Source: Enterobacterales bacterium (lineage in GTDB: Bacteria; Pseudomonadota; Gammaproteobacteria; Enterobacterales; Enterobacteriaceae). Taken from it: a stretch of DNA of 40,816 nt. The stretch lies in assembly GCA_015654745.1 (NCBI GenBank), contig JAATGH010000176.1, positions 1-40,816 of the forward strand, given 5' to 3'. Under the pieces are notes generated by a model, which ran no database searches, had not been told where the DNA came from, and worked only from the letters and a program-made list of their open reading frames with translations. The first letter of the stretch is position 1, and each line of letters starts with the position of its first letter. The translations under genes and the position numbers were made by a program. Positions 16,514 to 40,816 of this stretch are shown piece by piece.

Positions 16514-16521
16514 AATCTATT

Positions 16522-16613: not shown

Positions 16614-16637
16614 GTAAAACCGGCAACCCTATTTAGG

Positions 16638-18277: not shown

Positions 18278-18287
18278 GCCGGAATCC

Positions 18288-19413: not shown

Positions 19414-19427
19414 CTTGTCTATACAAG
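19414..19427. promoter_or_regulatory. HutC operator upstream of the transporter genes (site B)
   Basis: CTTGT-CTAT-ACAAG is a palindrome with five-base arms that fits the HutC (GntR/UTRA) operator pattern of gammaproteobacteria. It lies between hutD and the binding-protein gene and shares its TGTCTATACA core with sites at 16524 and 21583. Confidence 0.8.
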
Positions 19428-19548
19428 ACAACGTTATCAAGCAAAGCCTGTGCCATATTGGCGTCCACCGCCGTTACGCGCCCATGCCGCCCGCCCATTG
19501 CCGCTATAGACCGTCAAGCGTTGCGCCTTCTTGACCCATTTTGGCGCA

Positions 19549-21515: not shown

Positions 21516-21580
21516 GGCGGTTTCCGGTTAAGGTGAATACGTCGGGTTTAGGGAATGCATCCAGAGGAAATGCTTATCCA

Positions 21581-21594
21581 CTTGTCTATACATA
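21581..21594. promoter_or_regulatory. HutC operator between hutF and hutC (site C)
   Basis: CTTGTCTATACATA keeps the left arm and the TGTCTATACA core (21583-21592) of the other two sites, but the right arm reads CATA instead of CAAG. Placed in the divergent hutF/hutC gap, it would give autoregulation of hutC and control of both strands. Confidence 0.7.
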
Positions 21595-21656
21595 TACATA
21601 CGCTGAATTGAACAGTAAACTACTTTATTATCTCCCCTATCGTCGAGGTCGGAAAA

Positions 21657-22415: not shown

Positions 22416-22454
22416 CGCTATATCTGCAACCGGCTGTATGACGGGGGATTTACC

Positions 22455-24504: not shown

Positions 24505-25046
24505 TCATCTGGCGAAAAGCAGCTCTCCCGCTCGCAGCAGCTATCGCAGCTAGGCGAGCGGCAGTTGATTTCGCCGCTTTCCATCAGGCACTGCTGGCGA
24601 TAAAAGAATTTTTTCCACCGCATATTGTGCTGGTTCATGGCCACCAGCTCTGGAAAGCAGTCCGTCATTAGCTGCCGCAATTCAGCGCGCGAAGCCAGCC
24701 CCAGATCCTGCCAGAGATGATTAAAACCCATGGAGGCGATGGCTATCAGCTGATCAAGCGGCGCCGCGTCGGTTATCATATACTGGCCCAGCCAATCCGC
24801 CAGACTCAGCCGCTCCCGTCGACGCCGTTCTTGTAATAACTGCATCAGCCGATCCTGCTCGTTCAGCGCGGCGGATCTTGGCGCCGGCGCCAGCAAGACC
24901 TGCCGCATCAGTTGCCGGTAGTCCGCCGCCGGCAGTCCCATAAATAGCGGAAAACGGGCTCGCCCCTCCAGGTGGTTGAGTACCAAACGTCGCAGCCACT
25001 GGTCCACCGGCGCGGAGAACAATATATCGTTGGGTGGGTTTTTCAT
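24501..25046 (-). CDS. nifQ: NifQ, molybdenum donor for FeMo-cofactor
   Basis: A 181-residue protein that delivers molybdenum, in a Mo-Fe-S cluster, for FeMo-cofactor assembly. The central block NHLWQDLGLASRAELRQLM and the following MNQHNMRWKKFFYRQQCLM match Klebsiella NifQ closely. The C-terminal cysteine motif is CRSPSCDSCCERESCF. The ATG at 25046 shares one base with the nifB stop (TGATG), so translation is coupled to nifB. The longer frame from 25124 would run inside nifB. It is the last gene of the nif cluster on this side and converges on hutG. Confidence 0.95.
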   Translation of the reverse strand: MKNPPNDILFSAPVDQWLRRLVLNHLEGRARFPLFMGLPAADYRQLMRQVLLAPAPRSAALNEQDRLMQLLQERRRRERLSLADWLGQYMITDAAPLDQLIAIASMGFNHLWQDLGLASRAELRQLMTDCFPELVAMNQHNMRWKKFFYRQQCLMESGEINCRSPSCDSCCERESCFSPDD

Positions 25047-26656: not shown

Positions 26657-28546
26657 TCATTCCCCCCTGTCCGACAGGCGATATAGAGTAAAGCCATTGC
26701 CGTCCGCCGGGCGCCGCCCGCGCCACAGGATCGCCCTGGATGCCTCCGCAACCGGAGGCGCCAGCCATGGCCCATGCTTTAACAGCAGTTCACAATGCGT
26801 TGCCTGGGGGTTTTTCGTGACACCGTCACCTTGGCCGGACTTCCCGGCATAGATGCGAATTCCCGTTCGACCGGTGACGTAATGCAACATTGCCAGCTCC
26901 GATTCTCCCAGCCCATCGGTGGCCAGGCAATGTGCCTTATCCAGGTGCCCGGCGAGCGAGCGGAAGGTGTCCTGATAGCTGCGCGCCGCATCCAGCCAGG
27001 GCATCAACAGCGTAAAGGTAACGCCCCAGACAACCGTCAGGCCGCAGGCCCAGGACGACAATAGTCCCGCGCCGGATCGGGGACGGATAGCCCCCCACCA
27101 GCAGGCCATCAGCCCCAGCGCAATAACCGGCGCGCCCCAGTACCGCTGTAGGCTGAATGGTACCGGGAACTGCTGCGATATTCCCGGCCAGAACATCAGC
27201 CACAGCGACGGCTCCCCGCTTTGCCCCAGCTGGATCCAGGTCAGCACGATCACCACCAGCGTCAGCCCCACCAGCGCATTCCACAGGCGCCGCATCAGGG
27301 TCGCCGCGCCAGCCCCAGGCCGTCCACGCGGGACAGCCAGCGGCACGGCCAACAACGCCAGCGCAGGATAAACCGGCAGCAGGTAAATATCCCGCATGCT
27401 GGCCGACGAACACATGACCAGAATAGCGATCGTGGAATACACCGCCACCATGGCGTAAGCCGGGCGAAGGCATGCCAAGATGAGGATACGGCGCACCCAG
27501 GCCGCCGCACCTAGGCCCATACCTCTCGCCAGACCGGGCAGCGCGGCCAGCAGAAACCAGGATGCGGGCGCACCATTGATCCATATCGACAGGATCCGGT
27601 CCCGCAGCGGATTATCGTGGCCCCCAAGCGCGGCGGCTCCGGTAAAACGGCCAATATTGTTGACCCAAAACCATTCATCAAACAGCCCTGGCGCGACGTG
27701 ATACAGCAACCAGGGCCAGGGCAGGATAAACGGCAGCGCCGCCGCGCCGGCAGCGATATAGAACGGCCGCCCGACGGCCCGCCGCCATCCGGGTAGCAGC
27801 CAGCGGCACAGAACACAGGTCAGGCCGACAATGCCGGGCACCAGCAGCCCCTTCGACAGCAGCGCTACGCCCACCCCCAGTCCCAGCATCGCACCCTGGC
27901 CGATTACCTGCCGCCGTGCCTGGCTCAGGGTAGCGGCAGCGCCGCGGGGACAAGAACGCATCAACGCCGCCAGCGCCAGGGTGGCGCCGGCCAATTGGGC
28001 CAGGTCAGCGGTAAATTTATGGATATGTTCGGCCAAACCGACGGTGCCCACCAGCAGCGTTAACGCCAGCATGCGCCAGGCCGCCGGGTCGGGCAGCGAC
28101 GCCGGGCCCCTGAGCGCGGCCGCGCAATCGCGGGTTTCATCATATAACCGGGCGGACGCACGGCAAAATGCCCCCACCGTCACGGCCACGCACAGCACTA
28201 CCGCCAGGCGTGACGCTTCATGGGGAACCATCCAGGGTAGCAGTCTGGCACACAGCGCACCGAGCCAAAACATCAGCGGCGGTTTTTCCAGAAACGGATC
28301 TGCCCCCACGTGAGGCACCAGCCACCGATCGTTTTCCAGCATATTCCAAACAATGCCAAACGAGTAAGGCTCATCCGCTTTCCAGGGGAATCGGCCAAAG
28401 GTGCCCAATAGGCAGTACGCGGCAAACAATACCAGAGCGCATCGCCGTGCCCCTATTTGACTTTTTGCCCGTTGCGCCGGACTGACGGCCACGGAAACCG
28501 GGATCGTGCCCATCGGCGACAATAATCGATAAAAGCGCGATCTCAT
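26657..28546 (-). CDS. ArnT-like polyprenyl-phosphate-sugar glycosyltransferase, inner membrane
   Basis: A 629-residue polytopic membrane protein of the ArnT/PMT (GT-C) type. The first periplasmic loop carries the acidic pair in FPWKADEPYSFGIVWNML, followed by the PFLEKPPLMFW motif of this family. A dozen or so hydrophobic helices follow (for example LPFILPWPWLLYHVAPGLF), then a soluble C-terminal part from about residue 525. Such enzymes move a sugar from an undecaprenyl-phosphate donor to a lipid or protein in the periplasm. No arn genes are nearby, so the acceptor and the sugar are unknown. It lies between nifA and nifB, which are neighbours in Klebsiella, and its 3' end abuts the NifA site of nifB. 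Confidence 0.82.
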   Translation of the reverse strand: MRSRFYRLLSPMGTIPVSVAVSPAQRAKSQIGARRCALVLFAAYCLLGTFGRFPWKADEPYSFGIVWNMLENDRWLVPHVGADPFLEKPPLMFWLGALCARLLPWMVPHEASRLAVVLCVAVTVGAFCRASARLYDETRDCAAALRGPASLPDPAAWRMLALTLLVGTVGLAEHIHKFTADLAQLAGATLALAALMRSCPRGAAATLSQARRQVIGQGAMLGLGVGVALLSKGLLVPGIVGLTCVLCRWLLPGWRRAVGRPFYIAAGAAALPFILPWPWLLYHVAPGLFDEWFWVNNIGRFTGAAALGGHDNPLRDRILSIWINGAPASWFLLAALPGLARGMGLGAAAWVRRILILACLRPAYAMVAVYSTIAILVMCSSASMRDIYLLPVYPALALLAVPLAVPRGRPGAGAATLMRRLWNALVGLTLVVIVLTWIQLGQSGEPSLWLMFWPGISQQFPVPFSLQRYWGAPVIALGLMACWWGAIRPRSGAGLLSSWACGLTVVWGVTFTLLMPWLDAARSYQDTFRSLAGHLDKAHCLATDGLGESELAMLHYVTGRTGIRIYAGKSGQGDGVTKNPQATHCELLLKHGPWLAPPVAEASRAILWRGRRPADGNGFTLYRLSDRGE

Positions 28547-28834: not shown

Positions 28835-29084
28835 TAAATATATCGACGTGGTATATAAGAAATAATACACGTTTATTAAGAAAGGAATAATAACATACCC
28901 CCGGCAGATTACGGCAAAGAATATATCACTGATATTTCACCAGCGCACCTCCCGGCAACAAAGATCGGCGTATAAACGGGTCTTGACCTCGGCGGTGAGA
29001 TTCCACCGTCTTTTTGTCGGGCGTTGTGCTATCGTATGCGCCAAAACAACGCATTATCACGTCACGTCCCGTTGGTGGAAATTA

Positions 29085-30068
29085 GTGGAAAATCCGGTGG
29101 AAAAAAAGAAGAGCTTCCCGCAGCAGAAATCGCACCTGCATCCGCGCAACCGTCATCGCTCGCGCTATGACTTCCCCGCGCTTATCGCCAGCTGTCCCGA
29201 ACTCGAGCCGTTCGTCAAACCCAATGCCTGGGGCGATATCTCGGTAGATTTTGCCGACCCGGCGGCGGTGAAAATGATTAACCGCGCGTTGCTGCGCCAT
29301 TTCTACGGTATTGAGTATTGGGATATTCCGGCCAATTATCTTTGCCCGCCAATCCCCGGACGAGCCGACTATCTGCATTATCTGGCGGATCTGCTGGCCA
29401 CGGCCAACGGCGGCGAGATCCCGCGCGGCAAGCGCGTGGCGCTGCTGGATATCGGCGTGGGCGCCAATTGTATTTATCCCATTATCGGCCAACATGAGTA
29501 CGGCTGGCGTTTTACCGGCACCGAAACCGATCCGGTGGCGCTTAACTCGGCTAAAATGCTGGTGGCGATGAATCCCACCCTGAAAAACGCGCTGCGCCTG
29601 CGGGCGCAAAAACAGCCGGACGCCATGTTTGACGGCATTATCGGTATCGCGGAGCGCTTTGACGCGACCCTGTGCAATCCGCCGTTCCATGCATCGGCCG
29701 AAGAGGCAGGCGCCAGCACCCGACGCAAGCTGCACAAGCTGGGTAAAAGCGAGGTGACCGACGTGCCGGTACAAAACTTCGGCGGCCAGCATCATGAGCT
29801 ATGGTGCGCCGGCGGCGAGCTGGCTTTTGTCGGTAAAATGGTGGAAGAAAGCGTCGGCAAGAGCAAAAACTGCCTGTGGTTTACGTCGCTGGTGTCCAAG
29901 CACACCACGCTGGCGCCGCTGTATGAGGCGCTGGAACGGGTTGGCGCCGTTGACGTGCGCACCATTGAAATGGCGCAAGGGCAAAAAATCAGCCGCTTCA
30001 TCGCCTGGTCGTTCCACAACGCCGAACAACAGCGGCTTTGGGCGGCCGAGCGCTGGCAGCAAGCGTAA
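29085..30068 (+). CDS. rlmF: 23S rRNA (adenine-1618-N6)-methyltransferase RlmF
   Basis: A SAM-dependent methyltransferase of about 327 residues that modifies A1618 of 23S rRNA. It matches E. coli RlmF (YbiN) over its length: [14 protein letters not shown] at the start, [20 protein letters not shown], the SAM-binding motif [16 protein letters not shown], the catalytic NPPF ([11 protein letters not shown]), [10 protein letters not shown], and the ending [15 protein letters not shown]. The frame is open from 28983. GTG at 29085 was chosen because it gives an N-terminus of family length and GGTGG lies just upstream; the start remains uncertain. This is a housekeeping gene with no nif role, convergent with nifA. 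Confidence 0.92.
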
Positions 30069-30117: not shown

Positions 30118-31701
30118 TTACAGGCGATGCATATTAATATTCAGAATTTGAATGCGGTAGGCTACCTGACGGGGCGTCATGCCCAACAACCTGGCCGCTT
30201 TGGCCTGCACCCAACCGGATTTTTCCAACGCGGCAATCAGCTTTTGCCGATCGTCCATGTCGTTCTCCCCTGACGGATCCCCCAACGCGGAAGGCATAAT
30301 GACCCGCCCCTGCGCTGGCGAAGACATCGCCGGCGATTCGCTGTGGTTGAATAAAATCACGTCGCGGTCGATCACCCCTTCCTCCGACATCACCGACGCC
30401 CGCTCAAGGCAGTTTTCCAATTCCCGCACATTGCCCGGCCAGCTGTAGCTCATTAACAGCCGCAGCGCACCGTCGCTGATGCGCAGTTCGCGCCCTTGTT
30501 TAGCCGCCAGTTTGGCGATGAGAAACTGGGATAACCCAACAATGTCATCCTGACGCTCGCGCAGCGCCGGCAAATTTATCGGCATCACGTTAAGACGATA
30601 ATAAAGATCTTCGCGAAAACGGCCGTTGCGGACCTCCTCTTCCAGATTGCGGTTGGTGGCGGCAATAATCCGCACGTTAACCTTTAGGGTGGTATCGCCC
30701 CCGACCCGTTCCATTTCGCCTTCTTGCAAAATACGTAATAATTTAGCCTGAAACGACGCGCTGCTTTCGCCGATTTCATCAAGAAACAACGTGCCGCCGT
30801 CGGCTAGCTCAAAACGGCCCTTACGTTGCCGCACCGCGCCGGTAAAAGCCCCCTTTTCATGGCCGAACAGTTCGCTTTCCAGTAAGTTATCCGGCAACGC
30901 CGCGCAGTTAAATTTTACAAACGGCTCCAGAGTACGCGGGGAGTTGTAATGAATGGCATTGGCAATAAGCTCCTTACCGGTCCCGCTCTCCCCGCGCACC
31001 AGCACCGTAGTATCCCATTTGGCCACCTGCCTGATAACCTCAAAAATTTGTCGCATCGGCTGGCTATTGCCGACCATATTGTCAAAACCATACTGATGCT
31101 TGACCTTGCGTCTGAGCGTGTCGCGTTCCTGACGCAAGGCTTCGGTCTCCTGGTTCATATGGCCCACCAGTCGCACCGTTTGGCAAATCAGATTGGCCAC
31201 CATTTCCAAAAAACGGGTGCTGGCCGGTAGACGGTCCTCTTGCAGCTCCATGGGCTGCGCCGCCAGGACCCCTAACGGGATGCCATCGGGTCCGGGAATG
31301 GGCACGCAAATAAACGGCAGGCCGTAATCATATAAATTAAGCCGGTCCAAAAAGCGGGGATCGTCGGAAACCCGGGGCAATACCAGCGAGCGCTGTTGGC
31401 TCATCACCGTACCCAAAATCCCCTCGCCAATGCGGTAACGGACGTTTTTATACCCCTTGACCACTTCGGTATCCGCGCCGTATAAAGCTTCAATAAACAA
31501 CGCACTGCGTGATTTATCAAACAGGCACACCATACCGTACTGCATAAAGGCATGTTCATATAACGCCTGAATCATCGACTCCAGCGTTTGTCCCAAATCC
31601 AGCGAGCGGCTTAACGCCACGCTGATTTTATGCAGCGCGGTGAATTGTTGGGATAAATCAAAACGCCGTGAAATCGGGGTAGAGGTGGGCAACTGAGTCA
31701 T
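30118..31701 (-). CDS. nifA: NifA, sigma-54-dependent activator of nif genes
   Basis: A 527-residue enhancer-binding protein. The domains are an N-terminal GAF domain (about residues 20-180), an AAA+ domain with Walker A GESGTGKE (237-244), the sigma-54 contact loop GAFTGA (284-289) and Walker B GGTLFLDEIGE (302-312), and a C-terminal Fis-type helix-turn-helix (about 500-520, AARLLGMTPRQVAYRIQ). The linker lacks the cysteine motif of rhizobial NifA, as in enteric forms controlled by NifL. The start overlaps the nifL stop by four bases (ATGA), so the two are coupled and made in balance. It would act on the TGT-N10-ACA site before nifB. Confidence 0.97.
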   Translation of the reverse strand: MTQLPTSTPISRRFDLSQQFTALHKISVALSRSLDLGQTLESMIQALYEHAFMQYGMVCLFDKSRSALFIEALYGADTEVVKGYKNVRYRIGEGILGTVMSQQRSLVLPRVSDDPRFLDRLNLYDYGLPFICVPIPGPDGIPLGVLAAQPMELQEDRLPASTRFLEMVANLICQTVRLVGHMNQETEALRQERDTLRRKVKHQYGFDNMVGNSQPMRQIFEVIRQVAKWDTTVLVRGESGTGKELIANAIHYNSPRTLEPFVKFNCAALPDNLLESELFGHEKGAFTGAVRQRKGRFELADGGTLFLDEIGESSASFQAKLLRILQEGEMERVGGDTTLKVNVRIIAATNRNLEEEVRNGRFREDLYYRLNVMPINLPALRERQDDIVGLSQFLIAKLAAKQGRELRISDGALRLLMSYSWPGNVRELENCLERASVMSEEGVIDRDVILFNHSESPAMSSPAQGRVIMPSALGDPSGENDMDDRQKLIAALEKSGWVQAKAARLLGMTPRQVAYRIQILNINMHRL

Positions 31702-33209
31702 TCCGCTTCTCCTATCATCGCCGGTGAGTCGATCGGTGTGGCCGGCAGGGGTAAACGCAGGGTCAGGAGCGTCCCGTCTTCTTCCTGGGTATGGATATCG
31801 ATCATGCCCTGATGACTACCGATCAGGGTTTGTATCAACCGCAACTCCATACCGTGCCCCGGCATGGCGAAAGCCTGTGGCGGCGTGGTGGTCTGGGTTG
31901 GATATAACGGCAGGTTATCGCGCAAGGCAAAGAAAAACGCATTATCACGCCCATAAGCCTGCAAGGAGATCGCCAGCGGCACGGCGGGTCGGTCGCCGGC
32001 CAGGGTAAGGCAACGATCCAGCCAGAGGCTGAGGCATGCCAATATCTGATGGCGTTGTCCCCATCCCAGCAAAATGTCAGGCTGACACTGCAGCCGCAGT
32101 TCACCCACGGCGCAGATACGCGAGCGGTACAGATCGGAAAGATCCTTCAACATATCGCCGATAGACCAGAAATCACACTCCTCCATATCAAGCGAAGGCC
32201 GGCAGGCCTGCAGCCGCACCAGCGCCTGTTGTCCCTCATGCCAGGCAGCATCAAGGCCGGGGTGGGTAACGTGATCGGGATTTAAACGCCGGGCGGCCTC
32301 GAGCATATTCAGCGGCCCGCTCAGTTGGATCATCGCGGCATCAAGAGATTCACGGATCGCCGCCAGCAGTTTGCCCGATACCAGTTTGTGTTTAAGCCGC
32401 TCGAGCCGCTGTTGCTGCCGCTGTCGCTGCCGTTCGCTGTCGTCGATAAGCGTTACCAGGGTACGCGGCGGCGCAATGTCGGAAAAATAGCGGCTCACCT
32501 CTTCATTGACCTCCGACAGCGGCCAAATGCTTAAACCGAATACCCGGGGGGAGCCGCCAATATTGAGGGTGACGCGCTCCCCTGCGGCCAGGCGCGCCTT
32601 GTTGGCCGGATAACCCAGCCCGGCCAACAGTTCCCGGCCGCCGTAGTCGGCGCAAAGGGTTTTATACGCCAGGTTATCCATGACGATATTGTCAAACTCA
32701 TCCAAGACGATAACCGGCGCCGGGACATTATTCAGCACGGCGGCAATCAGCGACATTTGATTACGCAGCCGTTGCATAAGGGCATAACTGTCGGAGATAT
32801 CTTTATGCATGCCCAGGTAATGCTCAATTTTCCCGTCCGGACTGAAAACGGGGGAAATACTCACCTCCGCCAAATAGAGCGTGCCATTTTTGCGCTGGTT
32901 AATTAATTGTCCGATCCAGGGACGCCCTTGGGTGATAGTGCGCCACATGTCCTGGTAGTGCTGGTTCGGCGTCTGGCGGCTGGCCAAAATATTATGCTTG
33001 ACGCCGGTCAGTTCGATTTCACTGTAGCCTGTCAACTGACGAAACGCCTGGTTGGTATACACAATGCGCGCATTGGGGTCGGTGATGGATATCGCCACCG
33101 AGGATTGTTCCACCGCGGTATAGAAAAGATCGGGTCGCAGTGTGGACAACGCCGGCGCACCGGCGCTGGCGGCCAATACCGGGGCATCATCGAACAAGGG
33201 TATACGCAT
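31698..33209 (-). CDS. nifL: NifL, redox- and nitrogen-responsive anti-activator of NifA
   Basis: A 503-residue flavoprotein that binds and inhibits NifA under oxygen or excess fixed nitrogen. PAS1 (about residues 25-135: RPDLFYTAVEQSSVAISITD, NQAFRQLTGYSE, GTLYLAEVSISPVF) is the FAD-binding sensor. A second PAS-like region (PAPVIVLDEFDNIVMDNLAY) and a histidine-kinase-like C-terminal region (ending GMELRLIQTLIGSHQGMIDI) follow. The start at 33209 (MRIPLFDD) is preceded by AGGAG and fits the family N-terminus; the frame from 33254 lacks a ribosome site. It is divergent from rnfA, and a sigma-54 element lies upstream. Confidence 0.95.
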   Translation of the reverse strand: MRIPLFDDAPVLAASAGAPALSTLRPDLFYTAVEQSSVAISITDPNARIVYTNQAFRQLTGYSEIELTGVKHNILASRQTPNQHYQDMWRTITQGRPWIGQLINQRKNGTLYLAEVSISPVFSPDGKIEHYLGMHKDISDSYALMQRLRNQMSLIAAVLNNVPAPVIVLDEFDNIVMDNLAYKTLCADYGGRELLAGLGYPANKARLAAGERVTLNIGGSPRVFGLSIWPLSEVNEEVSRYFSDIAPPRTLVTLIDDSERQRQRQQQRLERLKHKLVSGKLLAAIRESLDAAMIQLSGPLNMLEAARRLNPDHVTHPGLDAAWHEGQQALVRLQACRPSLDMEECDFWSIGDMLKDLSDLYRSRICAVGELRLQCQPDILLGWGQRHQILACLSLWLDRCLTLAGDRPAVPLAISLQAYGRDNAFFFALRDNLPLYPTQTTTPPQAFAMPGHGMELRLIQTLIGSHQGMIDIHTQEEDGTLLTLRLPLPATPIDSPAMIGEAE

Positions 33210-33312
33210 AAAAGCTCCTGCGGTCAGGATAAAAATGTTGGTGGTGCGTTTCACGACAATTTGTCAGATCTGCCGACATGATGAGGTGAAGCGCAGATAA
33301 CCCTTAAGATTG

Positions 33313-33328
33313 TGCAAGTTTAATACCC
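33313..33328 (-). promoter_or_regulatory. sigma-54 (-24/-12) promoter of nifLA
   Basis: On the minus strand GGGTATTAAACTTGCA has GG and GC ten bases apart and an intact TTGCA. Transcription would start near 33302, leaving a leader of about 93 bases before the nifL ATG. In Klebsiella nifLA is sigma-54/NtrC dependent, but no clear NtrC palindrome was seen upstream. Confidence 0.7.
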
Positions 33329-33493
33329 AAAGTCAGACAACCGTCAAAAACCTTGATCTAAACAGGGGTTTTAACCTGCAAAAACGTGATTTTGCCGGTT
33401 TACACCGGCGTAAATCGCGCGCGCGCCCGCCGCGGCGCGCCATCATGATGCTGGCCGCGCACTAAAATCGCCCATTTTTCAGCCAGCACAAAT

Positions 33494-33509
33494 TGGCACA
33501 GGTTTCGCA
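33494..33509 (+). promoter_or_regulatory. sigma-54 (-24/-12) promoter of the rnf-nifF operon
   Basis: TGGCACAGGTTTCGCA has the consensus TGGCAC -24 element, and its GG (33495-33496) is ten bases from the GC (33507-33508). Transcription would start near 33520, about 28 bases before the rnfA ATG. No exact TGT-N10-ACA site was found in the nifL-rnfA gap. The remainder of that gap (33329-33493) shows no gene. Confidence 0.85.
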
Positions 33510-33547
33510 ATAACCCTTCTAGACGTATTGGATTTGCGGGGAAGGTT

Positions 33548-34126
33548 ATGAAGGAAATATTGCTGATCGTACTGGCCAACGGCCTGGTAAATAACATCGT
33601 ACTGTCACGTTTTCTGGGGTTGTGTTCATTTATGGGCGTGACGAATAAAGTCGATTCGGCCTTGGGAATGTCGATGGCGACTACGTTTGTGATTACGCTT
33701 TCCGCTGGTCTGGGCTGGATCATTTTTCACTGGATCCTGGTGCCGCTAGGTATGGAATACCTGCGTTTGCTGTCGCTGATTATGGTGATAGCGTCACTGG
33801 TTCAATTACTTGAACTGTTTATTGCCAAGCAAAGCCCGGCGTTATACCGCACGTTGGGTATTTTCCTGCCGCTGATCACCACCAACTGCGCCGTGCTCGG
33901 GGTAGCGCTGCTGGTTCTGGATGATAATTTAAGTTTTCTGCATAGCGTGGTATTCGGTTTCAGCTCTTCACTGGGCTACTCATTGGTCATGGTGATTTTT
34001 TCCGGCCTGCGGGAACGGCAGAACAACGCGACGCCGCCGCTGGTGTTTCGCGGGGCGCCGATCAATTTTATCACCGCCGGCATATTGGCTCTGGCGTTTA
34101 CCGGTTTTGCCGGTCTTGCGGGATAA
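33548..34126 (+). CDS. rnfA: Rnf complex membrane subunit RnfA
   Basis: A 192-residue inner-membrane subunit of the Rnf complex, related to NqrE/RsxA. It has six hydrophobic helices. The paired cysteine-containing loops LGLCSFMGVTNKVDSALGM and LPLITTNCAVLGVALL coordinate the intramembrane iron-sulfur centre shared with RnfE. GGGGAAGG lies upstream of the ATG. It is the first gene of a seven-gene rnf operon behind a sigma-54 promoter, divergent from nifL. Confidence 0.96.
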   Translation: MKEILLIVLANGLVNNIVLSRFLGLCSFMGVTNKVDSALGMSMATTFVITLSAGLGWIIFHWILVPLGMEYLRLLSLIMVIASLVQLLELFIAKQSPALYRTLGIFLPLITTNCAVLGVALLVLDDNLSFLHSVVFGFSSSLGYSLVMVIFSGLRERQNNATPPLVFRGAPINFITAGILALAFTGFAGLAG

Positions 34127-34135
34127 GGTGAGACC

Positions 34136-34678
34136 ATGAACGTTATTTTACCGGTGCTGGCGGTACCGGCCATTGGCTGCGTTATCGGATATCTGCTGGG
34201 CTATGCCGCCATTTATTTCAAAGTTGAGAAAGATCCGCGCATCGAGGCCATCGTCGCGCTGCTGCCCAACGGCCAATGCGGACAATGCGGGTTTCCCGGC
34301 TGCGTCCAGGCCGCCGGCGCCATGGTCCGCGGCGAGGCCCCGATCGGGGCCTGTACCCCAGGCGGCGCGGCGCTGGCCAAGCGTATCGCCGCACTGCTTG
34401 ATGTCGCGGCGGATGACCTGGAGGACGCGGGCCCCCAGGTGGCTTATATCGATGCATTAGCGTGCGATGGCTGCGGCCGCTGCCAGAAAAAATGCAACTT
34501 TGACGCCATTATCGGCGCGACACGCCAACTGCACGGGATCTTGGCCGACGATTGCACCGGCTGCGCCGGGTGTATTGACGCCTGTCCGCAACAGGCCATT
34601 GCGCTGCATGCCGATCCTCAGTTGACTCCCACCGCCGCCAAACCCCGTTTCGACCTGAGGGAGTCTTCGTATGTTTAG
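34136..34678 (+). CDS. rnfB: Rnf complex ferredoxin-type subunit RnfB
   Basis: A 180-residue iron-sulfur protein anchored by one N-terminal helix (about residues 3-28). Cysteines at 48, 51, 56 and 73 (GQCGQCGFPGC) bind one [4Fe-4S] cluster. Two further ferredoxin motifs lie at 110-120 (CDGCGRCQKKC) and 140-150 (CTGCAGCIDAC). In Rnf it is the exit point that passes electrons to soluble ferredoxin or flavodoxin. It starts nine bases after rnfA, and its stop lies inside rnfC (eight-base overlap). Confidence 0.96.
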   Translation: MNVILPVLAVPAIGCVIGYLLGYAAIYFKVEKDPRIEAIVALLPNGQCGQCGFPGCVQAAGAMVRGEAPIGACTPGGAALAKRIAALLDVAADDLEDAGPQVAYIDALACDGCGRCQKKCNFDAIIGATRQLHGILADDCTGCAGCIDACPQQAIALHADPQLTPTAAKPRFDLRESSYV

Positions 34679-36119
34679 CGCCAAACTCAAGCCCCATGGC
34701 GGTATCCGCCCCTATAGCCATAAATCCCTGACGCGCGATATTGCCATTCGCCCGTTAGCCATACCACGCCAGTTGATTATTCCGCTGCGGCAACACACCG
34801 GACCGGCGGCGGTGCCGGTCGTCAACGTAGGGGATACGCTGTACGCCGGGCAACGGGTGGCCGAGGGGCGTGAACGGATGTCCGCGCCGGTTCACTGTGC
34901 CCTGGCGGGAGTGGTCACCGACATTTCCTTCGGCGATCAGGGGGTCATCAAGGTGAGCGTATCGGCGGCTCAGCCGTTGGCCGCGCGCCTCACCGCACCC
35001 GCCGAGCTCGACGAAACACAGGCGATGCTGTCGCTGATCGAACAGGCCGGTATTGTCGGCATGGGCGGCGCGATGTTTCCCGCCGCCGATAAAATCAGAA
35101 TGAGCCTGCGTTACCCGATCGAGACGCTGATCGTTAACGGAGGCGAGTGCGAACCTTATCTCACCACCGACGATCGCCTGATGCGCGAGCAGGCGGAATT
35201 TATCATCGGCGGTATTCGTTACCTGCAAACCATCACCCATGCCCACCAGGTCTATATCGGCATCGAGGATAATAAAACCGAGGCGATTGCCCGACTGGAC
35301 GAACTTTGCCGCCACGAGCCGGATATCGAGGTGGTGATTTTGCCCTCGCTCTATCCGATCGGCTCGGCCAAGCAGATGATCGAAGCCGTAACCGGCCGCC
35401 AAATCCCGCAAAACCGCCGTTCAACCGAAATGGGGGTGCTGGTGCAAAATGTCGGCACCTGTATCGCCAATTTCCATGCGGTGCGCTTTGGTAAACCGGT
35501 GACGCACCGGGTGATCACCGTCAGCGGCAGGGCCATTGAGCAACCGGGCAATCTGCTGGTACCGATTGGCACGCCGATCAAAGAGATCATTACCCAGTGT
35601 GGCGGGCTAAAATCCCAACCGGCGCGCATCGTGCTTGGCGGGCCGATGATGGGGCGGGCGGTGCAAGATCTCGATACCCCGATTACCAAAGGCACCAGCG
35701 GGTTATTGTTGCTCACCGCCGACGAACTGCCGCAGACCCGGCCCAGCGCCTGTTTGCGCTGTGGCCGTTGTCTGGATGCCTGTCCCATGAGCCTGGCGCC
35801 GCAGGCGATGTTTGCCGAGCTGAAAAACGATGGTTTCGCCAAGGCGCAGCGACAGGGACTGAATGCCTGTTTGCTGTGCGGATCTTGCGCCTATGTTTGC
35901 CCCGCCGCACTGCCGTTGACCCAGTTCTTTGACTGGGGACAGCAGCAACTGCGCCTAATTAAACGACAAGAAGACAAGCTGTCGCGCACTCGGGAAAACA
36001 GCGCCCGCCGGCAGGAACGGCTGACGCGGGAAGCTGCCGAGAAAGCCGCGGCCCAGGCTGCCAAACCCGCCCGCCGCCCGCGCCGCGCCGCGCCGTCTTC
36101 GGAGGATTCCTCATGTTAA
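34671..36119 (+). CDS. rnfC: Rnf complex NADH-oxidising subunit RnfC
   Basis: A 482-residue peripheral subunit that oxidises NADH. The glycine-rich loop GIVGMGGAMFPAADK (about residue 128) and the VNGGECEPYLTTDDRLM block form the FMN/NADH region. Two [4Fe-4S] motifs lie at about residues 360-373 (CLRCGRCLDACP) and 399-412 (CLLCGSCAYVCP). The C-terminus is a short Lys/Ala/Arg-rich tail. E. coli RsxC is much longer because of repeats in this tail, so the protein resembles the compact RnfC of diazotrophs. It overlaps rnfB and rnfD at both ends. Confidence 0.95.
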   Translation: MFSAKLKPHGGIRPYSHKSLTRDIAIRPLAIPRQLIIPLRQHTGPAAVPVVNVGDTLYAGQRVAEGRERMSAPVHCALAGVVTDISFGDQGVIKVSVSAAQPLAARLTAPAELDETQAMLSLIEQAGIVGMGGAMFPAADKIRMSLRYPIETLIVNGGECEPYLTTDDRLMREQAEFIIGGIRYLQTITHAHQVYIGIEDNKTEAIARLDELCRHEPDIEVVILPSLYPIGSAKQMIEAVTGRQIPQNRRSTEMGVLVQNVGTCIANFHAVRFGKPVTHRVITVSGRAIEQPGNLLVPIGTPIKEIITQCGGLKSQPARIVLGGPMMGRAVQDLDTPITKGTSGLLLLTADELPQTRPSACLRCGRCLDACPMSLAPQAMFAELKNDGFAKAQRQGLNACLLCGSCAYVCPAALPLTQFFDWGQQQLRLIKRQEDKLSRTRENSARRQERLTREAAEKAAAQAAKPARRPRRAAPSSEDSSC

Positions 36120-37090
36120 CCGCGCCCCACGCCCACCAAGGACTGACCGTTGATCGACTGATGTATCGGGTCAATATCTCCTTGCTGCCTATCGTCATCC
36201 TGGCGTTCTTGCAGTTTGGCGCCCAGTCGGTTTTATTGATTTTTTGTTGTCTACTCACCGCACTGGCCTGCGAGGCCGTCTGCCTGCGGCTCAATCCCGC
36301 CGCGCAGGGGCATACCTTCGACGGAGCGGCGTTTCTCACCGCCCTGATCCTGGCGTTAAGCCTTCCGCCCCACGCGCCGCTTTGGCTAGGCGTATTTGGC
36401 AGCGCGGTGGCGATAGTGTTCGGTAAGCATATTTACGGCGGTCTGGGGCAAAATTTATTCAATCCGGCCATGCTGGCGCGCGTAGTGCTGCTGATCGCCT
36501 TCCCGGTGGAGATGACCCGTTGGGTTGATCCCGCCGCCTTTTATCATGGCGAATTTTACCGCCTCGGCGTGGATGGCGTTACCGGTGCGACGCTGCTGGG
36601 CGGATTCAAGGAAAACGGCCGGCAACACCTTGAACTGCTTACCAACCTGCTGGGCAACCGCAGCGGCAGCCTGGGAGAAACATCTTCGCTGCTGTTGCTC
36701 CTGGGCGGCGGCTGGCTTATTCAGCAACGTGTGTTTAGCTGGCATATACCCGTGGCGACGCTATTAGGCTGCCTGGTGCCCGGTACGCTCCATTGGCTGA
36801 TCTCGCCGGGCGGGATCGTTCCCCCCTTGGCGCAGCTGACCAGCGGCGGCCTGCTGCTCGGTGCGTTTTACATCCTCACCGATCCGGTAACCGGTCCCGG
36901 CAGCGTGCGCGGCCGATTAATCTACGGCGCGCTGGCCGGCTTTCTGACCTATTGCATCCGCGCCTTCGGCAACTTCCCGGAAGGGATGGCGTTTGCGGTA
37001 CTGCTGGTAAACGCCGTTACGCCGCTGATTGACAACTATACCCAGCCAAAAGCCTACGGCTTCGTGAGCGGCAAGGAGAAATCATCATGA
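36113..37090 (+). CDS. rnfD: Rnf complex membrane subunit RnfD
   Basis: A 325-residue integral membrane subunit of the NqrB/RnfD family with eight or more helices. The covalent FMN attachment motif is GVTGATLLGG, with the acceptor threonine at about residue 160. Other conserved blocks are FDGAAFLTALILALSLPP, GLGQNLFNPAMLARV and DPVTGPGSVRGRLIYGALAG. It starts within the rnfC end behind GGAGGA. Its stop overlaps the start of a 25-codon frame by four bases, not rnfG itself. Confidence 0.95.
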   Translation: MLTAPHAHQGLTVDRLMYRVNISLLPIVILAFLQFGAQSVLLIFCCLLTALACEAVCLRLNPAAQGHTFDGAAFLTALILALSLPPHAPLWLGVFGSAVAIVFGKHIYGGLGQNLFNPAMLARVVLLIAFPVEMTRWVDPAAFYHGEFYRLGVDGVTGATLLGGFKENGRQHLELLTNLLGNRSGSLGETSSLLLLLGGGWLIQQRVFSWHIPVATLLGCLVPGTLHWLISPGGIVPPLAQLTSGGLLLGAFYILTDPVTGPGSVRGRLIYGALAGFLTYCIRAFGNFPEGMAFAVLLVNAVTPLIDNYTQPKAYGFVSGKEKSS

Positions 37091-37164
37091 AACAGTATCG
37101 CGCCCGGCGGCATACGGCCTCGGCAATGGCGCCCGTTTGGGTGTCGAACGGGAGAAACGTATGA
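37087..37164 (+). CDS. 25-residue small frame bridging rnfD and rnfG
   Basis: An ATG overlaps the rnfD stop (ATGA, 37087-37090) and the frame ends in a TGA that overlaps the rnfG start (ATGA, 37161-37164). It thus links the two genes by four-base couplings at both ends. The peptide begins MKQYRARRHTASAM and is basic. No homologue is recognised. It may be a coupling peptide that carries ribosomes to rnfG, a real microprotein, or a chance frame; rnfG has its own GGGAG site. Confidence 0.35.
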   Translation: MKQYRARRHTASAMAPVWVSNGRNV

Positions 37165-37793
37165 TTTCCCGTGCAATGTTCCACTATTTTCCCACTAAGG
37201 AAAGCCCGGTGACTCAGGGGTTTTTGCTGGGTTCCTTTACCCTGATCGTGTGTTTGTTGGTGGCCGGGTGTTGGTGGCTGACTCATGAGCACATTATCCA
37301 GCGCGAAAAAGAAGATACCCAGAGCATGCTATCCCAGGTGTTCCCCGCCGAACGTTATGACAATGCCCTGGCGGACGCGCAGCAGACGTTATCCATTGAC
37401 GGCCGGAACATTGTTTTCTTTCGCGCCAGCCTTAATGGCAAACCCAGCGGGGTGATTCTGACCACGGAAACCCAAGGCTATGGCGGCCCGATTGAGCTGC
37501 TGACCGGTATTGACGCCAACGGCACCATCACCGGCGTCAGGGTGATCAAACATAAGGAAACTCCCGGCTTGGGCGACGCCATCGAGCTAAGCCATAGCCC
37601 TTGGATTCATAGTTTCGATGGCAAATCGCTGCAAAACCTGACAGAGCAACAATGGCATGTGAAAAAGGATGGCGGGCAGTTTGATGCGTTTACCGGCGCG
37701 ACCATCACGCCGCGCGCGGTGGTGAAAGGCGTGCATGAAACCTTGCAGGAATTTGAGCAGCAACAGGCGCAATTCCTGGGTGAACATCCTTAA
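37161..37793 (+). CDS. rnfG: Rnf complex FMN-carrying subunit RnfG
   Basis: A 210-residue subunit with one N-terminal membrane anchor (about residues 19-41, FLLGSFTLIVCLLVAGCWWL) and a periplasmic FMN-binding domain. The acceptor threonine is in GQFDAFTGATITPRAVV (T181). The block VIKHKETPGLGDAIELS is also typical. The start at 37161 is supported by GGGAG; the GTG frame at 37137 is less likely. E. coli RsxG shares the PAERYNNAL-like region (here FPAERYDNALADAQ). Confidence 0.94.
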   Translation: MISRAMFHYFPTKESPVTQGFLLGSFTLIVCLLVAGCWWLTHEHIIQREKEDTQSMLSQVFPAERYDNALADAQQTLSIDGRNIVFFRASLNGKPSGVILTTETQGYGGPIELLTGIDANGTITGVRVIKHKETPGLGDAIELSHSPWIHSFDGKSLQNLTEQQWHVKKDGGQFDAFTGATITPRAVVKGVHETLQEFEQQQAQFLGEHP

Positions 37794-37825
37794 TCAACCG
37801 TTTTGTTATTCATTAGGAGGCTTAT

Positions 37826-38524
37826 ATGAGTGAAACTAACCCACCGCGGCTACGGGAGATTTTGGTTAGCGGGGTGTGGACCAATAACGTCACCTTTGTG
37901 CAAATCCTTGGCCTTTGCCCATTGATGGCCATTACCACCACCGCCACCAACGGATTGGGACTGGGGCTGATGACCGCCATGGTGCTGGCCTGCTCGAACT
38001 TTATCGTATCGGCCCTGCGCAAGGTTACCCCCAACCAGATACGGATTCCGGTCTATATTTCGATTATCGCCTCCCTGGTGACCATCCTGGATCTGGGGAT
38101 GAATGCCTGGATGCACGATTTGCATAAGGTCATGGGGCTGTTTATACCGCTGATCGTGGCCAACTGCGCCCTGCTTGGCCGTGCCGAGGCCTTTGCCGCG
38201 CATAACGGCATTTTCCCGGCGGCGCTGGACGGCTTGTCCACCGGGCTGGGGTTTACCCTTGGGCTGACCAGCGTAGGCGCGGTGCGCGAAATTCTTGGCA
38301 GCGGCACCCTGTTTAGCGGCGCATCGTTGCTTTTAGGACCTCATTTCCATTTTCTTGAACTGCATCTGCTACCCGGCTATCGCGGCTTTTTGCTGATGTT
38401 GCTGCCGCCGGGCGGTTTTGTGGTAATGGGCATGCTGCTCAGCGGTATTCGCTTGGCAAAACGCCTGACCAGCCGCACCCACGTCACCCAGCTTAGCCGC
38501 GAGCCGGCCGGAGGGTGTCACTAA
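37826..38524 (+). CDS. rnfE: Rnf complex membrane subunit RnfE
   Basis: A 232-residue membrane subunit homologous to RnfA and NqrD. It has six helices and the mirrored cysteine loops (VQILGLCPLMAITTTATNGL and IVANCALLGRAEAFAA). The GFTLGLTSVGAVREILGSGT segment is conserved. A full AGGAGG precedes the ATG. The stop shares one base with the rnfH start (TAATG). Confidence 0.96.
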   Translation: MSETNPPRLREILVSGVWTNNVTFVQILGLCPLMAITTTATNGLGLGLMTAMVLACSNFIVSALRKVTPNQIRIPVYISIIASLVTILDLGMNAWMHDLHKVMGLFIPLIVANCALLGRAEAFAAHNGIFPAALDGLSTGLGFTLGLTSVGAVREILGSGTLFSGASLLLGPHFHFLELHLLPGYRGFLLMLLPPGGFVVMGMLLSGIRLAKRLTSRTHVTQLSREPAGGCH

Positions 38525-38778
38525 TGAAATTTTCCGTCGTCCATGTCAACGGCAACCAAGGCCGGTGCATTCAGATGCAGCTCGACGCACCGCTGACGGT
38601 GCAACAGGCCATTCTGGCGTCAAAGCTGCCGCAGCTATTTCCTTATCTCGATCTCGCAACACACCGTACCGGCATCTATGGCCGGTTATGCGCAGGGGAT
38701 ACTCTGGTAACCGAAGGGGATCGGGTGGAAATCTATCTGCCGGCCAACAGAAACGATGCAGATGATGAAGAGGCGTGA
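38524..38778 (+). CDS. rnfH: RnfH family protein
   Basis: An 84-residue ubiquitin-fold protein of the RnfH family (FSVVHVNG start, LTVQQAILAS, HRTGIYGRL, LVTEGDRVEIYLP). RnfH is encoded with nif-linked rnf operons such as that of Rhodobacter capsulatus and is thought to help the complex form or be stable; its mechanism is unknown. The start at 38524 uses GGAGG just upstream; the GTG at 38515 is less likely. It is the last rnf gene, 143 bases before nifF. Confidence 0.9.
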   Translation: MKFSVVHVNGNQGRCIQMQLDAPLTVQQAILASKLPQLFPYLDLATHRTGIYGRLCAGDTLVTEGDRVEIYLPANRNDADDEEA

Positions 38779-38804
38779 TCGGGCAGCTACAGTGTCATGC
38801 CCGA
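38779..38804 (+). other. inverted repeat directly after the rnfH stop
   Basis: TCGGGCA, beginning at the rnfH stop, and TGCCCGA (38798-38804) form a seven-pair stem with a twelve-base loop. No T-run follows, so it is more likely a processing or stability element in an rnf-nifF transcript than a terminator. No -24/-12 promoter with ten-base spacing was found between rnfH and nifF. Confidence 0.4.
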
Positions 38805-38921
38805 CCGCGCGGGGAACGGGTAGCCGACCTGCGCGGCCGATCGCGTTGAACAATCCATACCGGCATGGCGCGGCTCGCGTCGGCCTTATCATTGACGTTA
38901 ACTATTTTTATGGGGCTTAAC

Positions 38922-39449
38922 ATGGCTACTATCGGCATTTTTTTTGGTACCGACACCGGCAAAACCCGCAAGATTGCCAAATTGATTCATCAGCATTTCG
39001 CCGGCGAAGCGGATGAACCTAAAAACATCAACCGTTGTACCCTGGACGATCTGCTGGCGTATCCGGTGCTTATTCTTGGCACGCCGACCCTGGCCGATGG
39101 CCAATTACCCGGTCTGGAGGCAGAGTGCCAAAGCGAATCCTGGGCTGAATTCGCCGATACCCTGGCGCAGGCTGACCTGAGTGATAAAACCGTGGCCTTG
39201 TTTGGGCTGGGCGATCAGGAAGCCTATCCGGATAATTTTGTCAGCGCGTTGGGCGAACTGTACGATATCGTTGAGCAAGCCGGCGCCACGGTGGTCGGCA
39301 CCTGGCCCAAAGAGGGCTACGTATTCACCTCATCGGACGCCCTGGAAGGTGATCATTTCGTCGGTCTGGTGCTGGATCAGGATAACCAGGCGGATCTCAG
39401 CGCCGAGCGGGTGGAAACCTGGGTAAACCAGGTAAAAGCGGCGCTGTAG
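38922..39449 (+). CDS. nifF: NifF flavodoxin, electron donor to nitrogenase
   Basis: A 175-residue FMN protein that reduces the nitrogenase Fe protein. The N-terminal FMN phosphate loop FFGTDTGKTRKIAKLIH, then LILGTPTLADGQLPGLE and ALFGLGDQEAYPDNFVSALG, and the ending FVGLVLDQDNQADLS match Klebsiella NifF. The start at 38922 gives the family N-terminus (MATIGIFFG). The longer frame from 38865 adds an unrelated stretch. It is on the same strand as rnfABCDGEH and probably transcribed with them. It converges with nifM. Confidence 0.95.
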   Translation: MATIGIFFGTDTGKTRKIAKLIHQHFAGEADEPKNINRCTLDDLLAYPVLILGTPTLADGQLPGLEAECQSESWAEFADTLAQADLSDKTVALFGLGDQEAYPDNFVSALGELYDIVEQAGATVVGTWPKEGYVFTSSDALEGDHFVGLVLDQDNQADLSAERVETWVNQVKAAL

Positions 39450-39540
39450 TCAGCCTGGTGCGTTGATTCCGGAAGTCAGGAGATGCCCGGAGTGACCAGG
39501 CCGGGACATCGTCTGGGGCGGTAGAATGGTAAAGGTAAAT

Positions 39541-39559
39541 GCGGGGCGTTTCGCCCCGC
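39541..39559. terminator. bidirectional hairpin between nifF and nifM
   Basis: GCGGGGCG-TTT-CGCCCCGC is a perfect eight-pair stem with a three-base loop, midway between the two convergent stops. T-runs are poor on both sides (CTCGTTGCTTAT on plus, ATTTACC on minus), but stem strength and position make a terminator likely. Confidence 0.7.
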
Positions 39560-39566
39560 TCGTTGC

Positions 39567-40391
39567 TTATAAGGCGTTTAGCCATTGGCGTTGATACTGC
39601 TGGCGCATCCGCTCGCCCAATTGCTTACGCACCTGCTCCAACGCCTGCTCCCGGGGGATGGGCGCCGCTAGGCGTATTGCCCGGCACAGCAGAATATGCA
39701 GCCCCATTTCACTTGTGACAATGTCACTTATTCCTCCCGCTGGCAGATCAAACAGCGCCTGTTCGAGGGGGAAAAACAGCAGGCCACGGCTAATCCATCC
39801 CAAATTACCGCCCTCCAGCGCGGAGGGGCATTCAGAATGACGCTTGGCCAGCGAGGCAAATTCATCAATATGGTTAACCAAGCGCAGATGCAAGGCGGCA
39901 ATGCGCGCGGTCACCTGCTCCATATGGCAATCCGCCTGATCTTCATCCACCGTAAGCAGAATATGGCTGGTATCGCGTTGTTCAGGACGCAAAAATTGTT
40001 GCTGATGTTCCTGATACCAGCGCAATACCTGATCTTCCGTTGGCGTTGGCGCCGCCTGCATGACGCGCGCCAACATGTTATCCAGCAGCACTTCGTGGGT
40101 CATCGCCTGATACATGCCCCGCGCATCCAGCCCCAGCCGGGCTAACTGACGTGGCGCCACATGACTTTGCTTGAGCCGTTCATCAAGATTTGCCATCGCC
40201 GCGCGGATATCATTTTCCGCAGCGCAAAGCCCCTCGGCCAACGCATGTTCCACCACCCGGCCTTCCAAAATCAATTGCTTGGCATAACGGGGCTCGAAAT
40301 CGGTCAATTGTTGCGCGGTTAACGACCATGGTGGCGTCTGGTAGAGGGCCATGGACAACTTTAACCGGCTGAATATCCGCCATACTTCCAT
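39567..40391 (-). CDS. nifM: NifM, peptidyl-prolyl isomerase for nitrogenase Fe protein
   Basis: A 274-residue folding factor needed to mature NifH. The C-terminal half is a parvulin domain (about residues 135-235: FLRPEQRDTSHILLTVDEDQ, FASLAKRHSECPSALEGGNL, GWISRGLLFFPLEQALFDLP, ITSEMGLH-like block VTSEMGLHILLC). It matches Klebsiella NifM, including the QRQWL ending. AAGGAG lies eight bases upstream of the ATG. It follows nifZ by 12 bases in one operon. Confidence 0.93.
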   Translation of the reverse strand: MEVWRIFSRLKLSMALYQTPPWSLTAQQLTDFEPRYAKQLILEGRVVEHALAEGLCAAENDIRAAMANLDERLKQSHVAPRQLARLGLDARGMYQAMTHEVLLDNMLARVMQAAPTPTEDQVLRWYQEHQQQFLRPEQRDTSHILLTVDEDQADCHMEQVTARIAALHLRLVNHIDEFASLAKRHSECPSALEGGNLGWISRGLLFFPLEQALFDLPAGGISDIVTSEMGLHILLCRAIRLAAPIPREQALEQVRKQLGERMRQQYQRQWLNAL

Positions 40392-40403: not shown

Positions 40404-40816
40404 TTAGGATTCCGTGACCCGTGCCGCCAGCGCCGCTTCCGGCACCCGAAACAGTCGCCCCTCGAACAACACCACATAGGCCATCGGCTGCCGATCGCGA
40501 ATTTCATCCATAATCTGCCCCACCTGTCCTTCGTTGACCACCGGCCGCCCGTCAATAGCCAGCGGCAACGCGGCGCTGACCCAATCGCCGTACTGGAATG
40601 CGCCGGCAATCCAGGGCGCGCTGCCGGAGATAATCTCCTGTTCGCGGCAACCGGCGATGCAATTTTCCTCGACAAATTGGACCTGATAAATCAGATTATC
40701 CTGCGGGAAACCGCCCCATTCCCGCACATATCCGATGCTGCCCTTGCGCACCAGCAGCGCCCCGAGCGCTTTGCCGGGGAAAGCGCCGTCATTGCGCAAT
40801 GAACGGATAACCCGTA
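40404..40816 (-). CDS. nifZ: NifZ, 3' part (start lies beyond the window)
   Basis: About 137 residues continue in frame to the window edge. Matches to Klebsiella NifZ include RNDGAFPGKALGALLVRKGS, GYVREWGGFPQDNLIYQVQF, CREQEII and the GRLFRVPEAAL ending. NifZ helps P-cluster assembly in the MoFe protein. Upstream codons keep the family pattern (RVIRS before LRNDG), so the apparent TTG start at 40799 is not the true start. nifW, nifV and others are expected further right. Confidence 0.9.
   Translation of the reverse strand, partial: RVIRSLRNDGAFPGKALGALLVRKGSIGYVREWGGFPQDNLIYQVQFVEENCIAGCREQEIISGSAPWIAGAFQYGDWVSAALPLAIDGRPVVNEGQVGQIMDEIRDRQPMAYVVLFEGRLFRVPEAALAARVTES

Follow-up and report, generated by a model that had tools for sequence, protein, structure and literature searches.

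The 40,816-nucleotide contig JAATGH010000176.1 of Enterobacterales bacterium (assembly GCA_015654745.1, genome G000; family Enterobacteriaceae), hereafter the window, contains a complete rnfABCDGEH operon placed between nifL and nifF and in line with the latter. The locus very probably represents a nitrogenase-dedicated Rnf operon of the Rnf1 kind joined with nifF, an arrangement from which the Klebsiella-type line would have lost rnf while gaining nifJ. It is also likely that the nifF promoter of the Klebsiella-type clusters is a fossil rnfA promoter and that the NifJ-NifF route arose from one exchange, the window standing for the state just before it. In functional terms, the known activity of Rnf makes it most likely that the window encodes an inducible pump from reduced nicotinamide adenine dinucleotide (NADH) to NifF.

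Architecture of the nifL-rnf-nifF locus

The open frames disclose seven intact plus-strand genes, rnfA-B-C-D-G-E-H (33548-38778), between the minus-strand nifL and the plus-strand nifF, which follows directly downstream. The right flank continues with nifM and nifZ, both on the minus strand, and nifB and nifQ lie to the left of nifA. The features of the region, with model scores in bits and the cut-off where one applies, are as follows.

24501-25124, minus strand: nifQ (Pfam PF04891, 143.9 bits)
25046-26491, minus strand: nifB (TIGR01290, 648.8 bits), without an fdxN-like frame behind it
30118-31701, minus strand: nifA (NCBIfam TIGR01817, 690.8 against 528.85 bits)
31698-33209, minus strand: nifL (NCBIfam TIGR02938, 244.1 against 242.45 bits, a narrow pass)
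33243-33258, plus strand: putative degenerate NifA upstream activator site, GGT-N10-ACA (intergenic alignments of 9 rnf-bearing rows and of 10 mixed rows)
33313-33328, minus strand: sigma-54-like site of nifLA, GG-N10-GC (score 12/15)
33494-33509, plus strand: predicted sigma-54 promoter of rnfA, TGGCAC-N5-TCGCA, with an odd -12 element, TTCGCA (14/15 on the consensus scan)
33548-34126, plus strand: rnfA (TIGR01943, 248.6 against 229.3)
34136-34678, plus strand: rnfB, ferredoxin-like subunit (TIGR01944, 164.9 against 68.7)
34671-36119, plus strand: rnfC (TIGR01945, 462.4 against 245.95)
36113-37090, plus strand: rnfD (TIGR01946, 333.9 against 207.05)
37161-37793, plus strand: rnfG (TIGR01947, 185.1 against 102)
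37826-38524, plus strand: rnfE (TIGR01948, 255.5 against 213.4)
38524-38778, plus strand: rnfH, RnfH ubiquitin-like family (Pfam PF03658, Ub-RnfH, 67.9 against 23.7 bits)
38922-39449, plus strand: nifF, flavodoxin (TIGR01752, 208.2 against 146.75 bits)
39567-40391, minus strand: nifM (TIGR02933, 239.1 against 168.2)
40404-40814, minus strand: nifZ, cut by the window end (Pfam PF04319, 83.9 bits)

All six Rnf subunits A, B, C, D, G and E are intact in one operon and score above the NCBIfam subfamily cut-offs, the RnfC translation displaying two CxxCxxCxxxC motifs; RnfH falls below its NCBIfam equivalog cut-off (48.5 against 75). The rnf set adjoins nifLA in divergent orientation, and both NifL and NifA pass equivalog models. 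A preliminary description of this DNA had proposed the complete operon, its in-line placement before nifF and its NifL/NifA neighbourhood, all of which are borne out by the open frames and the NCBIfam/Pfam models. Eight related genes in such an order, repeated in relatives, are far beyond chance. The assembly is a draft (5.05 Mb, 495 contigs, 83.7% complete), and its nifH, on contig C415, starts at the contig edge and has stop codons among its first residues.

The same genome contains a second set, a complete rsxABCDGE followed by nth on contig C237, which passes all six NCBIfam Rsx models. A reading of the window rnf as the housekeeping copy, and the only one in the genome, which the preliminary description had raised against its own proposal, is ruled out by this operon; because of it, the nif-linked rnf is an extra set. 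The window copy, flanked by nif genes on both sides, passes the models for RsxA, RsxC, RsxG and RsxE but remains under the cut-offs for RsxB (154 against 203) and RsxD (292 against 415). The subunits of enteric RsxABCDGE and of the window Rnf are homologous; nevertheless, enteric RsxC, which is nth-linked on C237 and not nif-linked, shows 36-40% RnfC identity and forms a separate clade in the RnfC tree. In that tree, of a kind suggested in the preliminary description, the window RnfC groups within a 44-row nif-linked clade (Shimodaira-Hasegawa-like approximate likelihood ratio test, SH-aLRT, 100 in a quick tree), far from enteric RsxC.

Distribution of rnf beside nifL

NifL was searched in 394 genomes of the order (20 matched), 392 of the family (33) and 369 of the class (20), the genome of the window being included in each count; with G754, added from a further search, the family comprises 34 NifL genomes. 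Stretches of up to 20 kb around the NifL matches were compared, some class contigs being short. Across Enterobacterales, a comparison that the preliminary description had called for, rnfA adjoins nifL divergently in 18/18 genomes of other families. The full rnf set is present in 17 of these 18, the contig of G127 ending in rnfB, and 14 of the 17 have nifF behind rnfH (in G175 at 2.4 kb); nifF was not found within the stretches of G075, G150 and G082. Within the family, rnf adjoins nifL in 9 of the 34 genomes, including (i) the Sodalis-type genomes, namely the window, G516, G669, G727 and G754, and (ii) genus g214, namely G492, G587, G655 and G713. The other 25 are Klebsiella-type, and one of them, G605, nevertheless belongs to the window's own genus. 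At the class level, rnf directly adjoins nifL in 14 of 19 genomes, 13 of them divergent and G1036 in another orientation, and nifF stands behind rnfH in G910 only.

The placement of rnf between nifL and nifF is therefore rare among enterics, while outside them a divergent rnf next to nifLA is widespread. In addition, a NifL scan of genome contigs returned seven loci, two of them enteric (L066, the metagenome-assembled genome bin_27, and L067, Sodalis sp. dw_96), and a tblastn search of RnfC against plasmids returned 21 records of at most 39.4% identity, several of them chromosome-sized. In G727, a single-contig genome, rnfC occupies two frames and the rnfD alignment is partial at 61% (L075, 5778-7959), reflecting either error or decay.

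Promoters and the ferredoxin gene fdxN

The scans relied on the generally known sigma-54 consensus and NifA site motif, the consensus having T where TTCGCA has C; the score prefers T at -12, so that C is less readily picked, and this applies to all compared promoter sets alike. The preliminary description had placed rnf and nifF behind one sigma-54 promoter, and the scans agree with it. The site at 33494-33509 ends 38 bases upstream of rnfA, and the 143-base rnfH-nifF gap shows no sigma-54 site scoring at least 11, no strict NifA site and no sigma-70-like site, lending no support to a separate strong nifF promoter, which the preliminary description had named as a finding against its own proposal. 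The RNA fold of the gap is not telling (z -1.63).

The odd -12 element links the rnf-bearing and rnf-lacking kinds. The 'CGC' of TTCGCA is present in 11/11 rnfA promoters from the nine rnf-bearing family genomes and from G163 and G186 (genus g85, of another family), as well as in the nifF promoters of all 25 rnf-lacking family genomes. It occurs in none of 57 others, comprising (i) 16 rnfA and (ii) 10 nifF promoters of other families, (iii) 22 nifL promoters of rnf-lacking genomes, and (iv) nine of rnf-bearing genomes. Over the 16-base promoter core, rnf-lacking nifF and rnf-bearing rnfA agree at 0.80, compared to 0.50-0.59 for other sets; over the 14 bases downstream of the core, mean identity is 0.33, compared to 0.25 on average and 0.29 at most among shuffles, 0/500 of which reached as high, a comparison of related rows that is not to be read as a probability. 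The NifA site near nifL is also alignable between the two kinds in a set of ten rows, and the strict form, TGT-N10-ACA, is found in the intergenic region of 3/5 genus members, 4/4 g214 and 25/25 Klebsiella-type genomes. The alignments of this region also show two short elements, of which GACAAWTTGTC (window 33255-33265, most rows) is a near-palindrome and TTGATC, present in all rows, has A-rich sequence upstream of it (33348-33358).

On the other hand, all 11 scanned rnfH-nifF gaps of other-family genomes outside g85 carry their own sigma-54-like site (11/15 in G009, 12-14 in the rest) and NifA site before nifF. The gaps of the nine rnf-bearing family genomes, G163 and G186 show no NifA site, and among them a weak sigma-54-like site (11/15) is seen in G516 only. 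The ferredoxin gene follows a parallel distribution. FdxN was sought with a relaxed regular expression, the stricter form with two regular motifs having matched none in 62 genomes, and lies directly behind nifB in 15/15 testable other-family genomes outside g85 and in 11/13 class genomes; it was found at that place in 0/2 g85, 0/4 Sodalis-type, 0/4 g214 and 0/24 rnf-lacking genomes. In a genome-wide search, 15 of the 18 other-family genomes gave a close match (53-100%); in the other three (G163, G186 and G127, the last 60% complete), as in all 34 family genomes, the best match is a shorter homologue (39-48%), here taken for a housekeeping ferredoxin. With fdxN and the nifF promoter lost, NifF would remain as the only low-potential carrier observed in this region of the cluster, bound to the rnf operon. 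The window looks like an intermediate, in which fdxN appears to be gone and nifF to belong to the rnf operon, rnf not having been exchanged for nifJ.

Trees and the direction of change

The trees are mostly quick maximum-likelihood searches without bootstrap, with G681 left out of the rnf-lacking rows. The remaining 24 rnf-lacking rows form one clade in the NifA, NifL, NifF and NifB trees (SH-aLRT 98, 99, 96 and 99), and a more careful joined tree of 26 genomes recovers its 11 rnf-lacking members as one clade (100/100), subject to a long-branch warning concerning G163/G186 and the outgroup. The family as a whole is one clade for NifA (33 rows), NifL (33) and NifB (32), with SH-aLRT of 98, 100 and 96 and with rnf-bearing and rnf-lacking genomes side by side. 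G163 and G186, which carry rnf with nifF behind it, are the nearest outgroup of the family in NifA, NifL, NifB and RnfC, the RnfC of Sodalis-type and g214 being sister to theirs (SH-aLRT 100). Since RnfC branches like NifA, NifL and NifB, the nearest outgroup bears rnf, and all other sampled NifL genomes of other families bear it as well, rnf and nifLA most likely share one line of inheritance, the absence of rnf being the derived state. A transfer of rnf alone from another family was considered and rejected, the RnfC tree agreeing with those of NifA, NifL and NifB.

The preliminary description had suggested the reverse, namely that an ancestral Klebsiella-like nifL-nifF pair took up rnf between the nifF promoter and nifF. 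This is very improbable, even though rnf-bearing genomes are a minority of the family and the rnfA promoter does resemble the Klebsiella-type nifF promoter. The position of rnf beside nifL in every other-family genome and in most class genomes, the agreement of RnfC with the NifA/NifL/NifB branching, and the presence of the odd promoter on rnfA already in G163/G186, outside the family, mean that an insertion would need several matching events. The synteny, the RnfC branching and the odd -12 element on the nifF promoter are better explained by a loss of rnf through deletion in the Klebsiella-type line.

A second alternative holds that the whole rnf-bearing nif cluster was imported from another family into Sodalis-type and g214, so that its placement would say nothing about Klebsiella. 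Replacement of clusters does occur, as exemplified by G605 (contig C112; L076 and L238), which carries a Klebsiella-type cluster with nifJ. Its NifA lies deep in the rnf-lacking clade, yet its RsxC groups with the window's own genus, and its whole nif cluster, nifJ included, has for this reason probably been replaced by transfer. Import from another family is nonetheless improbable, given that the NifA, NifL and NifB rows of the family form one clade with both kinds side by side and that the common nifF/rnfA promoter ties the two kinds together; moreover, a transfer between lines leaves the inferred order of rnf loss unchanged.

Rnf versus NifJ

NifJ is a pyruvate:flavodoxin oxidoreductase, through which Klebsiella nitrogenase receives electrons from pyruvate; Rnf oxidises NADH and reduces ferredoxin, driven by an ion gradient, and NifJ plays an equivalent part starting from pyruvate. 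With the copy adjoining nifH in G605 as query, nif-type NifJ (68-100% identity) is present in 25/25 rnf-lacking family genomes, though in fragments in G671, G681 and G737. None of the 27 rnf-bearing genomes of the order has it; they returned either nothing at an expectation value of 1e-100 or a 47-52% paralogue. Conversely, nif-type RnfC is found in 9/9 rnf-bearing and in 0/25 rnf-lacking family genomes, the latter showing only RnfC of the Rsx kind plus some weaker homologues (36-40%). The 52 NifL genomes of the order therefore split without exception into those with nif-type NifJ and those with nif-linked rnf. NifJ lies at most 35 kb from nifL in 22 of the 25, at 226 kb in G446 and on another contig in G475 and G588, and 24 NifJ rows form one clade, with a long-branch warning. 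At the whole-genome level, the exclusion of nifJ by rnf breaks down beyond the order: 8 of the 19 class genomes have a 48-52% NifJ homologue, located near nif in G890, more than 400 kb away in G879 and on another contig in the other six, and six of the eight also carry rnf beside nifL.

A third alternative is that the nif-linked Rnf mainly serves regulation or redox balancing, NifF being fed by a housekeeping pyruvate oxidoreductase. The rnf-bearing family genomes do hold the NifJ paralogue (in G000 as two pieces at contig ends), and regulatory roles of Rnf1 in A. vinelandii and Azoarcus are cited in PMC7341956. However, the genome has a separate rsx operon, nif-kind rnf and nifJ are mutually exclusive within the order, rnf and nifF share one direction, and the sequence scans found no second nif promoter; this alternative is consequently unlikely.

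Proposed history and mechanism

From the sequence we infer the following course of transcription and electron flow. NifA, together with sigma-54, would transcribe the genes from rnfA to nifF as a single unit; using NADH and the ion gradient, the Rnf complex would drive the uphill transfer of electrons to NifF, and NifF in turn would reduce the nitrogenase Fe protein. PMC10936413 describes NADH oxidation by Rnf, driven by an ion gradient, as reducing ferredoxin for nitrogenase. The history would comprise three stages, including (i) an ancestor with nifLA divergent from rnf, nifF behind rnf under its own sigma-54 promoter, and fdxN behind nifB; (ii) the line to g85 and the window's family, in which fdxN and the nifF promoter would have been lost, making nifF dependent on the rnf promoter; and (iii) the Klebsiella-type line, in which rnf would have been deleted and nifJ gained, leaving nifF directly downstream of what had been the rnfA promoter. 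The second stage would still be represented by the window with its kin and by genus g214, and the textbook nifF/nifLA neighbourhood would be the scar of the rnf deletion at the third.

Several observations weigh against this history or narrow it. Regarding the survey, rnf lies about 6 kb from nifL in G786, and 4 of the 19 class genomes (G1019, G930, G1015 and G890) lack an rnf set in the stretch compared. The family and g85 are not separated in the NifF tree, and single trees conflict over the branching of Sodalis-type, g214 and the rnf-lacking genomes, with NifL giving 93 for Sodalis-type plus rnf-lacking and NifB 78 for g214 plus rnf-lacking; a grouping of the rnf-bearing kinds together has p 0.213 in the approximately unbiased test and 68/47 in the joined tree. 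Concerning the exchange, the 47-52% NifJ paralogue is present in rnf-bearing family genomes, in G000 as the two pieces already mentioned; the counts of 25 and 27 represent consistency and not 52 independent tests, because there is mainly one exchange on the tree; and absence is weak evidence in drafts such as G000 (83.7% complete), G113 (88%) and G127 (60%). In G890 (L221), nifJ (49%) lies about 3 kb from nifA; the stretch contains no rnf, and the genome encodes a nif-type RnfC at a distance of about 660 kb, so that nifJ and nif-type Rnf can coexist in one genome. At the promoters, the likeness outside the 16-base core is short (14 bases downstream, 0.33 against 0.25), and the window NifA site has GGT instead of TGT. 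The rnfH-nifF gap also contains a weak terminator-like hairpin (38877-38898), in a region, 33200-39700, that holds 15 such hairpins compared to 7.7 +/- 3.2 in shuffles; given this hairpin and the 143-base gap, transcription of nifF could, in part or entirely, begin elsewhere.

Comparison with known systems

Compared to the rnf1-nifLA systems of Azotobacter vinelandii, Pseudomonas stutzeri and Azoarcus, as described in the review PMC6490700, the window shares rnf divergent from nifLA, and differs in having nifF in line behind rnf. According to the same review, rnf1 is NifA-regulated in the cited A. vinelandii, P. stutzeri and Azoarcus strains, and divergent rnf lies beside nifLA in most groups, the Enterobacteriaceae clade (G1 of that study), without it, being one of two exceptions. 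The window's genus and g214 depart from this and qualify the published rule that Enterobacteriaceae lack rnf next to nifLA.

The preliminary description had called the placement unusual, which holds among enterics; however, the order is already in print outside them, Table 1 of PMC12625758 giving nifF-rnfHEGDCBA-nifL-nifA-nifB, as in the window, for nif cluster 1 of Vibrio porteresiae MSSRF30, with one protein number skipped between nifF and rnfH. That paper reports induction of these genes in nitrogen-free medium, likens the cluster to those of Azotobacter and Pseudomonas, and shows fdxN retained behind nifB, in contrast to the window. Among enterics, nif genes have been described for deadwood Sodalis, a word search of the main text of that paper returning no 'rnf', and the available part of PMC8042378 lists an 'rnf ABCDEG operon' with the nif genes of a Klebsiella variicola genome, no place being stated, which is tentatively taken here as the housekeeping set.

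The Klebsiella-type clusters preserve nifM, nifZ, nifF, nifL, nifA, nifB and nifQ in the same order and orientation as the window in most of the 25, with a nifF promoter resembling the window rnfA promoter. They differ in that nifF adjoins nifL, rnf is absent and nif-type nifJ is present (beside nifH in G605, where looked at); in the window rnf separates nifL from nifF, and nif-type nifJ was not found in its 83.7% complete genome or in its rnf-bearing kin. The locus suggests how, and by which steps, the Klebsiella cluster, the best studied among those for nitrogen fixation, came to NifJ without rnf, and one genus holds both states, nifJ in G605 and rnf in the window, G516, G669, G727 and G754. 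Neither the rnf/nifJ exchange nor the nifF/rnfA promoter relation was met as a published statement in a full-text search, which is no proof, subscription papers being mostly outside its reach. If the proposed history is true, nitrogen fixation of the Sodalis type should be powered by NADH and the membrane gradient and rely less on pyruvate, which would bear on deadwood fixation and on the choice of electron module for nif transfer to other hosts.

Additional features of the genome and the window

A second nifH lies beside anfD (TIGR01861, iron-only nitrogenase alpha chain) on contig C40 of G000 (L293, 3-2328). Since a second nifH (about 450-459 bits) is present in 6/6 genomes of the window's genus, an alternative nitrogenase may be general in it, anfD having been checked in G000 only.

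Two genes lie between nifB and nifA in the window. RlmF, a 23S rRNA methyltransferase (28983-30068, plus strand), is found within the nif cluster in the window and G516 only, among 71 regions compared. The other (26657-28546, minus strand) encodes a 629-residue hydrophobic protein without a Pfam or NCBIfam match; in G669 the corresponding position holds a 48% relative, and G727 shows fragments. To the left of nifQ, the histidine utilisation genes hutU, hutH, hutF, hutC and hutI, with transporter genes interspersed, occupy 13238-23669.

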